From Psychroflexus halocasei (GTDB taxonomy: Bacteria; Bacteroidota; Bacteroidia; Flavobacteriales; Flavobacteriaceae), in assembly GCF_900107595.1 (NCBI RefSeq), contig NZ_FNQF01000006.1, positions 62,001-126,000 on the forward strand: a stretch of DNA of 64,000 bases, given 5' to 3'. Numbering within the stretch: position 1 is the first letter of the stretch; each line of letters starts with the position of its first letter. Positions 58,750 through 61,103 of the stretch are shown in pieces. The notes under the pieces were generated by a model, which saw only the letters and a program-made list of their open reading frames with translations, was not told the origin of the DNA and ran no database searches. The position numbers were made by a program, and so were the translations under genes.

Positions 58750-58836
58750 GCAAATCGATATATATGGGCAATTATTTTGAAACTTATAAAAGCTTAATTT
58801 TGAAGCGTTTTAAGATTGTATTTTATACACATTAAC

Positions 58837-58844
58837 TATATTTG
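58837..58844 (+). promoter_or_regulatory. -7 promoter element for the serine hydrolase
   Basis: TATATTTG matches TAnnTTTG and lies 25 bp before the ATG at 58870. Confidence 0.65.
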
Positions 58845-58869
58845 GCTTCTCTTAAAGAAAAAATTGTCT

Positions 58870-60123
58870 ATGAGTTTAGGTTTTTTAAGCTCAAAAAAGC
58901 TGTTTACAGTATCGCTTGTTGTCGGCTTTTTTGTTATTATTAATTACGCGTTTTCAAGTCATCCTTCTTCAGAAAATAACAGTTTTACTGTGATGCATAC
59001 AGACGTAGATTCTGTTGCAATTGCAGATATTGCTAAATCTGTAAAAGTTGAAAAATCTAAAGTAAGTTATAAAGAAGAGCTTGCTGTTGATATTGCTCAG
59101 GTTTCTGAGAAACTGAAAACTAAAGCGAATCGGTTGAGGTTTAACGGCTCTTTGTTGATCGCTTATAAAGATCAAGTTATTTTTGACTCATCTTATGGGT
59201 ATAAAGATCCGATTAATAAAACAGAAATAGATTCATCAACATCATTTGAGTTAGCATCAGTGAGTAAACAATTTACTGCAGCAGCCATAATGAAGCTTTA
59301 TGATGATGAATTATTAGACTTAAATGAAAGTGTAACAACTTATTTGTCTGGGTTTAAATTTCCTGAATTAACCGTTAAAGATTTATTGAAACATAGATCT
59401 GGCTTATGGAATTATATGTATATGACTGAAGCTTATTGGAAAAAAGATAAAGCGCCTAACAATTTTGATGTTGTTAAGCTTGTCAATCAGCACCAAACGA
59501 GTTTGAGTTTTAGACCAGGTTCTAGATTTAAGTATAACAATACCAATTATGTGCTTTTAGCAGCTATTGTTGAAAGTGTTTCAGGAACAAATTTTGAAGA
59601 TTATTTAGAAGAAGAATTCTTTAAACCGCTCAACATTAATGAAACTTATGTTGGACTTGAGAATAGAGATTTGGATAATGTAGCGAAGGCTTATCAAGCT
59701 TATGGGCGTGGTTATGTTAAATTAGCGCCTAGTTTCCATAATGGAGCTGTTGGTGATAAAGGTGTTTATGCATCTGCTGATAACTTGTGGAGATGGTTTA
59801 AAGCAATTAAAAATGCAGAAATTTTAAAGCCAGAAACTGTTGATTTAATGTTCAACTCTGATGAGTTTGATTTTTACAAGTATGGCATTGGTTACCGCAC
59901 TAAAAAAGATCAAGATAAAAGAATTATTTATCACAACGGTATATGGGATGGTTACAGAAATGGCTTAACATTTGTCCCTGATGAAGACTTAGTTGTGATT
60001 ACATTAAGCAATACTCAAAACAGAAATAAACGTTACTTTCAAAGCTACGTGATTGATAAACTTGAGGACGTGATTAAAAATTACGAACTAACGACTGAAA
60101 AACTTGTTGAAGAAAAGATTTAA
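58870..60123 (+). CDS. Beta-lactamase-family serine hydrolase (class C-like / PBP4*-type)
   Basis: A 417-residue serine hydrolase with one N-terminal membrane or signal helix (about 11-27). The catalytic motifs are SVSK at 130-133, YNN at 222-224 and HNG at 355-357. This is the class C beta-lactamase/DD-peptidase/esterase superfamily. The YNN variant instead of YAN/YSN and the lone position make an antibiotic-resistance role unlikely; a peptidase or esterase role is more probable. The ATG at 58870 is downstream of the promoter. Confidence 0.88.
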   Translation: MSLGFLSSKKLFTVSLVVGFFVIINYAFSSHPSSENNSFTVMHTDVDSVAIADIAKSVKVEKSKVSYKEELAVDIAQVSEKLKTKANRLRFNGSLLIAYKDQVIFDSSYGYKDPINKTEIDSSTSFELASVSKQFTAAAIMKLYDDELLDLNESVTTYLSGFKFPELTVKDLLKHRSGLWNYMYMTEAYWKKDKAPNNFDVVKLVNQHQTSLSFRPGSRFKYNNTNYVLLAAIVESVSGTNFEDYLEEEFFKPLNINETYVGLENRDLDNVAKAYQAYGRGYVKLAPSFHNGAVGDKGVYASADNLWRWFKAIKNAEILKPETVDLMFNSDEFDFYKYGIGYRTKKDQDKRIIYHNGIWDGYRNGLTFVPDEDLVVITLSNTQNRNKRYFQSYVIDKLEDVIKNYELTTEKLVEEKI

Positions 60124-60154
60124 TCAATTTTATTTTTTTATTCAAAAATAATTC

Positions 60155-60162
60155 TACATTTG
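60155..60162 (+). promoter_or_regulatory. -7 promoter element of the phhA leader transcript
   Basis: TACATTTG matches TAnnTTTG. The expected transcription start, a few bases downstream, almost coincides with the ATG of the leader peptide at 60171, so the leader would be nearly leaderless. Confidence 0.7.
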
Positions 60163-60170
60163 CTTAAGCA

Positions 60171-60236
60171 ATGACAAATTTTACAATGACATATTATTAC
60201 TATTCTTCAATTCTGAAATCCAGAGTCGGTAGGTAG
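60171..60236 (+). CDS. Tyrosine-rich leader peptide (21 residues)
   Basis: A short ORF beginning MTNFTMT, followed by four consecutive Tyr codons (60192-60203: tat tat tac tat), and ending RVGR then TAG. It has a promoter just upstream and an intrinsic terminator 27 bp after its stop, in front of the aromatic amino acid hydroxylase gene. This is the typical setting of a leader peptide in ribosome-mediated attenuation, with Tyr-tRNA as the sensed species. The protein itself is not expected to have another function. Confidence 0.75.
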   Translation: MTNFTMTYYYYSSILKSRVGR

Positions 60237-60299
60237 TACAATAAATTTAAAAATATATTCACCAAATCCCGATTCATAACGAATCGGGATTTTTTTATT
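60223..60299 (+). promoter_or_regulatory. Tyr attenuator: antiterminator segment plus terminator upstream of phhA
   Basis: GAGTCGG (60223-60229), which lies inside the leader ORF 20 nt past the Tyr codons, can pair with CCGATTC (60269-60275) in the left arm of the terminator (seven pairs, one G-U). A ribosome stalled at Tyr codons would leave it free, blocking the terminator; a ribosome reaching the stop at 60234 would cover it and let the terminator form. A possible extension is GGT 60232-60234 with ACC 60261-60263. The mechanism is inferred. Confidence 0.65.
60264..60298 (+). terminator. Intrinsic terminator upstream of phhA (attenuator)
   Basis: A perfect 12-bp stem (AAATCCCGATTC with GAATCGGGATTT, loop ATAAC) is followed by a T-run and lies 12 bp before the phhA ATG. 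A terminator directly ahead of a gene implies conditional read-through. Confidence 0.9.
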
Positions 60300-60309
60300 T
60301 ACAATAGTT

Positions 60310-61038
60310 ATGATACAAGACATGAACACTTACACAGCTGATGATTTATGGGTTTGGAACAAACTCTTCCAGCGTCAATTAGAAAACATTCCAAACAAAG
60401 CAAGTGAAACATATCTTGAAGCAGTTGATGTGATGAAACCAGTTTTAAATGCGGATGAATTACCAGATTTTAGCAAGCTTGGAGAGTGGTTTAAAGATTC
60501 AACTTCATGGTCTTTAGAAGTTGTCCCAGGCTTGATAGAAGTCGAGGATTTCTTCAAACTCCTAGCTCAAAAGAAATTTTGTTCATCGACGTGGTTGCGC
60601 AGTAAAGACTCTTTAGATTATTTGGAAGAGCCTGATATGTTTCATGATATTTTTGGTCATGTACCATTATTGAGTAATTCTATTTTTTCAGCTTTTATGC
60701 AAGAATTTGCACAATTAGGCTGTGATTTTATCAATGATAAAGAGAAAATAAAACAACTTCAACGCCTGTATTGGTTTACCATTGAGTTTGGTGTGATTAA
60801 AGAAAACGGAATCATCAAATCTTATGGTGCAGGAATCTTATCTTCTTTTGGAGAGACCAATCAAATTGCCGAGTTGAAAGCTAATTTTCATCCTTTTGAA
60901 ATGGATACAATTTTGCAAAAAGAATTCAGAACTGATGTAATGCAAGAAGATTACTTTGTAATTGACTCTTATGAGCAGTTATTTGAGAGTTTGCAACAAC
61001 TTAAAAAAGAATGGAAGGATCAAATGGTTTTAGCCTAA
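60310..61038 (+). CDS. phhA: Aromatic amino acid hydroxylase (phenylalanine 4-monooxygenase type)
   Basis: A 242-residue pterin-dependent iron hydroxylase, the catalytic core only, converting Phe to Tyr. The iron ligands are His112 and His117 (MFHDIFGHVPLL) and Glu159 (WFTIEFG). No N-terminal ACT domain is present, as usual in bacteria. Tryptophan or tyrosine hydroxylation cannot be excluded from sequence alone, but the Tyr-codon attenuator ahead of it favours Tyr production. No pterin carbinolamine dehydratase gene is adjacent. A terminator follows. Confidence 0.92.
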   Translation: MIQDMNTYTADDLWVWNKLFQRQLENIPNKASETYLEAVDVMKPVLNADELPDFSKLGEWFKDSTSWSLEVVPGLIEVEDFFKLLAQKKFCSSTWLRSKDSLDYLEEPDMFHDIFGHVPLLSNSIFSAFMQEFAQLGCDFINDKEKIKQLQRLYWFTIEFGVIKENGIIKSYGAGILSSFGETNQIAELKANFHPFEMDTILQKEFRTDVMQEDYFVIDSYEQLFESLQQLKKEWKDQMVLA

Positions 61039-61042
61039 AATA

Positions 61043-61080
61043 AAAAATCCCGACTTTCTCATTTGGAAGTCGGGATTTTT
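61043..61080. terminator. Terminator after phhA
   Basis: A 14-bp stem (AAAAATCCCGACTT with AAGTCGGGATTTTT) has A and T runs on its two sides and serves phhA and the convergent metalloprotease gene. Its core AAATCCCGA is the same as in the attenuator terminator. Confidence 0.88.
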
Positions 61081-61103
61081 AACAATCAAATAATCATGAA
61101 TAA

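Follow-up and report, generated by a model that had tools for sequence, protein, structure and literature searches.

The window analysed here is a 64,000-nt stretch of the Psychroflexus halocasei genome, and towards its end lies phhA, whose predicted product matches the Pfam family Biopterin_H (6e-45) and the NCBIfam family PRK11913.1-2 (2e-72; 243.5 bits, just under the cut-off of 247). Residues H112, H117 and E159, which we take to be the iron ligands, sit in columns that are invariant among 12 sequences. Proteins of this family convert phenylalanine to tyrosine. A stem-loop with a T-run follows the gene; it was found by eye, and is not in the output of the terminator finder, which has a loop limit of 8 (the loop here is 10). 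phhA is apparently a one-gene transcription unit. The two arms of this downstream stem (AAATCCCGACTT / AAGTCGGGATTT) look like those of a stem that precedes the gene (AAATCCCGATTC / GAATCGGGATTT). On the other side is an ORF for a serine beta-lactamase-fold hydrolase (58816-60123), with D-aminopeptidase as its best NCBIfam match; it scores below the cut-off of all 25 NCBIfam families shown.

The features found between this ORF and phhA are given in Table 1. The original prediction had named a TAnnTTTG promoter, a small ORF with four Tyr codons in a row, a perfect 12-bp terminator just before phhA, and a segment within the ORF complementary to the left arm of that terminator, and all four are present. 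The terminator (60264-60292) has 12 pairs, a 5-base loop and a T-run at 60290-60296, and the GAGTCGG of segment 2 pairs with CCGATTC of the left arm with one G-U. The predicted spacings of 20 and 5 nt are close to those counted: 19 bases separate the last Tyr codon from segment 2, and 4 bases separate segment 2 from the stop codon. Folding of the leader region, also proposed at that stage, gave z = -4.26, and none of 200 shuffles was equally stable. Two features had not been noted before. The first is a 1:2 hairpin (60198-60238), the 5' arm of which begins within the Tyr codons while the 3' arm contains segment 2, and the second is a very short predicted 5' UTR: the box lies 8 nt from the leader start, which places the predicted transcription start site (TSS) at 60167 and leaves 4 nt before the start codon.

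Table 1. Features of the phhA locus of P. halocasei (positions are those of the window).
Feature	Position	Strand	Basis
-7 box, sigma-A type, TAnnTTTG (TACATTTG)	60155..60162	+	sequence
Leader peptide ORF, encoding MTNFTMTYYYYSSILKSRVGR*	60171..60236	+	sequence
Four consecutive Tyr codons (putative sensing stretch)	60192..60203	+	sequence
1:2 hairpin (last two Tyr codons and next bases against the stretch holding segment 2)	60198..60238	+	folds
Segment 2, antiterminator 5' strand, GAGTCGG	60223..60229	+	pairs with terminator left arm
Segment 3, terminator left arm and antiterminator 3' strand, AAATCCCGATTC	60264..60275	+	sequence, fold
Segment 4, right arm of intrinsic terminator	60281..60292	+	sequence, fold
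phhA, short biopterin-dependent phenylalanine 4-monooxygenase, 242 aa	60310..61038	+	NCBIfam, Pfam
Stem-loop with T-run 3' of phhA, loop 10, likely 3' terminator	61046..61078	+	by eye

This arrangement is very probably a tyrosine-specific, ribosome-mediated transcription attenuator, as judged from sequence comparison. From its parts we infer a transcription start, translation of the leader, stalling and a response to tyrosine, which may be pictured as follows. Transcription would begin a few bases before the leader start codon and, by prediction, exactly at it in many relatives. When Tyr-tRNA is ample, the ribosome would pass the Tyr codons and reach the stop codon, covering segment 2, and the 3:4 terminator would end transcription before phhA. 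When charged Tyr-tRNA is scarce, the ribosome would stall in the Tyr run, opening the 1:2 hairpin and freeing segment 2 past the ribosome edge. Segment 2 could then pair with segment 3, the terminator would be blocked, and PhhA would be made and turn phenylalanine into tyrosine.

The leader is conserved. Among 27 genomes of the genus Psychroflexus, 17 carry a close, short phhA (at least 64% identity, the gene of the window included), and a Tyr-rich leader ORF with a terminator precedes 16 of these 17, the exception being L005. A wider set of 84 short-type loci, which overlaps the genus set, was made up of the best 80 of 405 related loci and four more (L001, L003, L006 and L024). With a leader defined by at least 3 Tyr within 6 residues, 56 of the 84 have one, a count that is not of independent loci because the rows are related, some being near-identical (L102/L111; L118/L123). 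The other 28, of which four have no more than about 200 nt of sequence upstream, show no recognisable leader. Nor was one found at another three short-type loci from the family (L023, L025 and L026), bringing the totals to 56 of 87 with a leader and 31 of 87 without. Together with L005, these leaderless loci show that phhA can do without it. Leader ORFs are 14-26 codons long, where the start was chosen by a rule blind to the promoter box (the most Tyr-rich option, with preference for ATG and for the longest frame, to a maximum of 26 aa).

By their labels, the owners of leaders are Psychroflexus, Planktosalinus, Mesonia, Flavobacterium gelidilacus, a large number of Crocinitomicaceae and Fluviicola, together with two MAGs under the label Saprospiraceae; not all of these labels look right. 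Several phhA genes that are close to flavobacterial ones carry labels that seem odd, namely Chryseobacterium gleum (L117), Actinomyces viscosus (L125), Halobacteriovoraceae (L127), Glaciecola amylolytica (L135) and Saccharospirillaceae (L142), and L135 has a leader that closely resembles that of Fluviicola. No leader was seen at any of nine loci labelled Balneolaceae (one with 203 nt upstream), nor at any of 26 long-type aromatic hydroxylases (about 590 aa), even when the threshold was relaxed to 3 Tyr within 8 residues. The proposal of amino-acid leader attenuation before phhA is largely borne out by these comparisons, which, as had been anticipated for relatives, recovered Tyr-rich leaders and alternative pairings, with compensatory change, upstream of many phhA genes of Flavobacteriales.

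Between leader and phhA, an intrinsic terminator was detected by script at 54 of the 56 leaders, and by eye at the other two (L086 and L131), which the finder missed, apparently through greedy extension. By sequence, the left arms form 12 classes, for example CCCGATTC, CCCGGTTC, CCGGTTTC, CTCAGTTC, CCTCTG and GGCTCTC, and segment 2, 5-9 nt long and partnered with the left arm, changes along with them (GAATCGG, GAACTGG, GAAGCCGG, GGACTG, CAGAGG, GAGGGC). In a MAFFT alignment segment 2 is displaced by one base from group to group, and for this reason the pairing was scored by script. With one row per arm class (12) and 20 random draws of 500 permutations each, the pairing score with the own arm was 192 against 145 (sd 9.4) with permuted arms, and none of the 10,000 permutations reached 192; segment 2 was picked by best complementarity, and the permuted arms were given equal freedom. 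Taken one row at a time, segment 2 outscores mononucleotide shuffles (p < 0.05) at no more than 37 of the 54 loci.

These data bear on the simplest alternative, in which the terminator belongs to the upstream gene, or arose by chance, and merely lies beside a chance Tyr-rich ORF. Small ORFs are indeed abundant, with 588 ATG-started ORFs of 10-40 aa on the two strands of the window, but the phhA leader is the only one of them to encode YYYY, or even YYY, and 40 first-order Markov windows held a mean of 0.0 ORFs with YYYY and 0.6 with YYY. Retention of the leader at so many loci, the fact that segment 2 co-varies with the terminator, the fixed spacing of segment 2 to the Tyr run, the promoter box placed between the upstream gene and the leader, and the lack of leaders at long-type genes all speak against coincidence, which we regard as scarcely credible and have rejected.

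The spacing itself is consistent with attenuation by a translating ribosome. Segment 2 begins a median of 15 nt past the last Tyr codon (interquartile range 14-16, range 7-21), and its placement varies less relative to the Tyr run (sd 2.3) than relative to the stop codon (sd 5.9). Under an assumed footprint, a ribosome whose A site holds the last Tyr codon would leave segment 2 clear at 51 of 54 loci (exceptions L104, L108 and L115), and one at the stop codon would cover it, also at 51 of 54 (exceptions L102, L103 and L111). When the RNA 3' of the stalled ribosome was folded as far as arm 3, the 2:3 antiterminator formed part of the minimum free energy (MFE) structure at 50 of 54 loci, including the window, the others being L094, L108, L115 and L123; a 2:3 pairing of at least 6 pairs is available at 52 of 54 loci, compared with 544 of 2160 shuffles. 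The 1:2 hairpin engages at least 4 bases of segment 2 in the MFE structure at 47 of 54 loci, again including the window, and is only moderately stabler than mononucleotide shuffles (mean z -2.0, with some rows near 0). At the thresholds applied to the 54 loci, L108, L115 and L123 display neither 1:2 nor 2:3. The elements by which an attenuator is recognised have been found, that is, a run of cognate codons, a terminator, a mutually exclusive antiterminator with compensatory change and a 1:2 hairpin, and the gene under the putative control would provide the amino acid that is sensed, as judged from what is known of the PhhA family and from the failure to detect tyrA or pheA in the same genome.

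In a T-box, the RNA reads the tRNA directly. A T-box, or a riboswitch that binds tyrosine, with the ORF falling within the fold by accident, is another possible reading. A T-box is described as controlling phenylalanine-4-hydroxylase in the Bacillus cereus group (PMC2494555), likewise an RNA-based control of this enzyme but one found in Firmicutes and acting without a leader peptide; its specifier amino acid is not named in the accessible text. Such an element would give no reason for the Tyr run to be preserved in an ORF across loci, or for the leaders of pheA in the genus to switch to mixed Phe and Tyr codons. The same paper gives a count of 0 T-boxes for 7 Bacteroidetes/Chlorobi genomes (PMC2494555). 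Within the window, no Rfam 15 family matched over its gathering score, and T-box is absent from the 27 Rfam hits with E values up to 5 that fall in the region 60000-61100, all of which are below gathering. A T-box or known Rfam element was rejected on this lack of a covariance-model match, and we hold a tRNA- or tyrosine-binding RNA to be very improbable here, and retain the leader-peptide attenuator.

At 42 of the 56 loci the leader start is preceded by an exact TAnnTTTG whose end lies no more than 20 nt away. By comparison, the motif was met at 156 of 11,200 random positions of the same loci, which are mostly coding, and before the start codon in 2 of 26 long-type hydroxylases. The commonest spacing between box and leader start is 4 nt (16 loci), followed by 5 (7 loci), 8 (6 loci) and 6 (5 loci). 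In Flavobacterium psychrophilum the sigma-A box is reported to occupy -12 to -5 (PMC9723704), so a spacing of 4 would put the leader start codon at +1, and given the proximity of the box the leader mRNA is predicted to be usually leaderless, or nearly so. The same source gives 5.5% as the share of leaderless transcripts among F. psychrophilum mRNAs with a mapped TSS, and describes mRNAs of that group as lacking Shine-Dalgarno sequences (PMC9723704). Attenuator ORFs without a 5' UTR are reported elsewhere, such as the mycobacterial polycysteine ORFs (cited in PMC9031893) and trpL of Sinorhizobium meliloti, where the RNA likewise begins at the leader ATG, but the system is trpL/trpE(G) of an alphaproteobacterium (PMC7298713). 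With the modal leader start at the predicted +1, leaderless initiation in attenuation becomes testable.

Related leaders occur at other genes of aromatic amino acid synthesis. In Psychroflexus, mixed Phe/Tyr leaders such as MTTRFYFYFNFYFADPAKRG precede pheA at 19 of 20 loci (L059-L077, in attenuator layout), and the twentieth locus (L078) is cut short; at L066 the leader has at its end CGAAACGAGG, which is perfectly complementary to the terminator arm CCTCGTTTCG. Two genomes from a different family of the order have Tyr leaders upstream of genes identified as tyrA by NCBIfam, VKTTNRTYYYAILTLKQD (L201) and VITNKETYYYRIFNSDLG (L206); in each, a box that differs from the -7 motif by one mismatch lies 4 nt upstream of a GTG start. 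His-rich leaders (HHH) with a terminator were also seen before hisG, identified by eye at L204 and by NCBIfam at L209. The codons of the leaders fit the products: those before pheA have Phe and Tyr codons, those before tyrA and phhA have Tyr codons, and those before hisG have His codons. The tyrA and pheA leaders share the order and the layout of the phhA leader; they differ in that the target is the prephenate branch, and the pheA leaders also combine Phe with Tyr codons and in most cases stand further from the box, which is a variant one. When 395 genomes of the order were searched with a covariance model (R1), which has 6 base pairs only and is mainly a sequence model, 44 matches had E values of 0.01 or below. 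The seven best (E up to 2.2e-5) are all upstream of phhA, the gene at L186 and L187 being identified by eye alone, and the remainder, among 30 loci listed, are a mixture of tyrA and hisG leaders and unrelated terminators.

The genome of P. halocasei is 99.96% complete, and profile searches found in it no match to PF02153 (tyrA) or PF00800 (pheA), families that the matching members of the genus hit at 3e-29 and 2e-44 or better. Chorismate synthase and Pterin_4a are present. Since neither pheA nor tyrA was detected, PhhA would be the sole visible route to tyrosine in this genome, starting from imported phenylalanine. Both genes are undetected in 6 of the 27 genus members, and five of the six carry a leader-bearing phhA; the sixth, G008, matches none of pheA, tyrA and short phhA, and is predicted to be auxotrophic for both phenylalanine and tyrosine. 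Loss of tyrA is not required for the leader, because 11 of the 16 leader-bearing Psychroflexus keep the gene.

Outside the genus set, 50 of the other 66 genomes were searched (their completeness is not given). The 39 with a leader include 2 with tyrA over cut-off and 12 with pheA: 10 have pheA without tyrA, 27 have neither and 2 have both. The 37 that lack tyrA over cut-off include G180 and G209, which match below it. Of the 11 without a leader, 5 have tyrA over cut-off (four of these being partial and weak) and 7 have pheA.

Tyrosine breakdown must also be considered. HPPD is over cut-off in 25 of the 27 genus members, including P. halocasei, where an HmgA-like ORF (L216:3627-6047) adjoins it. 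This ORF matches HgmA_N (3.9e-14) and TIGR01015 (1.2e-19, yet far under its cut-off), and when scanned as a protein it reaches 21.1 bits for HgmA_C against a cut-off of 21, a match that the genome search did not report. Genome searches with PF04209 (HgmA_C) found matches in 3 of the 27 members, from which an absence of tyrosine catabolism had been considered; that idea was dropped in view of HPPD in 25 of 27 and the HmgA-like ORF beside the HPPD of P. halocasei. In G000 at least, and also in G002 (L217, 20.2 bits), the PF04209 result is a false negative; HgmA_C barely reaches its Pfam cut-off in the ORF of P. halocasei, so that genome searches for this family yield false negatives in the group. 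HPPD and the HmgA-like ORF together indicate that P. halocasei can probably also degrade tyrosine, and PhhA may possibly have a mixed role, feeding catabolism too.

It is conceivable, then, that the attenuator is real while PhhA serves mainly in phenylalanine catabolism (to HPPD and homogentisate) or in pigment formation, and that sensing of tyrosine does no more than fine-tune it. The degradation genes just described and the retention of tyrA by most leader-bearing Psychroflexus fit such a role. A shortage of tyrosine should not switch on a catabolic gene, however; HPPD occurs as well in genus members that have no short phhA, long-type hydroxylases have no leader, and nearly all of the leader-bearing genomes outside the genus are without tyrA over cut-off. 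We therefore consider a chiefly catabolic or pigment function unlikely. The original prediction had seen in PhhA an enzyme of tyrosine supply: the absence of tyrA, the Phe/Tyr leaders of pheA and the Tyr leaders of tyrA favour this, and HPPD, the HmgA-like gene and the 11 genomes that keep tyrA qualify it. Conservation of the leader in many relatives suggests that the enzyme is used for tyrosine supply when tyrosine is short.

Classical attenuators of the trpL, hisL and pheL type have a short ORF with cognate codons, 1:2, 2:3 and 3:4 pairings and an intrinsic terminator, all of which are shared by the phhA leader. It differs in that it would sense tyrosine alone, in that the hydroxylase it would control uses another amino acid as substrate, in occurring in Bacteroidota, and in a 5' UTR that is very short or nil by prediction. 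We know of no leader peptide that senses tyrosine alone. Within the phylum, signs of leader-peptide attenuation are described for F. psychrophilum (PMC9723704), and a putative attenuator is given upstream of the pheA operon of Bacteroides thetaiotaomicron (PMC1173090, Table 7); these likewise concern amino-acid operons, and phhA is not named in the accessible text of either paper. The main text of a 2010 survey of premature terminators does not mention Bacteroidetes, flavobacteria or tyrosine (PMC2965389). A biosynthetic role of phenylalanine hydroxylase in Dyella, Legionella and Echinicola is in print (PMC7311316). Among the papers listed as matches, none dealt with a Tyr leader peptide or with an attenuator of phhA, the subscription literature being largely outside the search. 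The sensed amino acid, the target and the start are all unusual for a leader-peptide attenuator.

Bacterial phenylalanine hydroxylase is usually classed as catabolic. On balance we lean towards a broader interpretation, in which a Tyr-only attenuator on a leaderless, or nearly leaderless, mRNA would be spread across the order, and PhhA would be a dedicated, and often the sole, tyrosine-supply enzyme in many Flavobacteriales. Lineages lacking pheA and tyrA would meter the hydroxylation of imported phenylalanine by the charging of Tyr-tRNA, and the same kind of leader would act on tyrA in relatives. If this is true, a conserved switch that turns on at low charged Tyr-tRNA would mean that PhhA serves biosynthesis in many members of a large order; it would explain the genomes without tyrA, and tyrosine would join the amino acids sensed by leader peptides.
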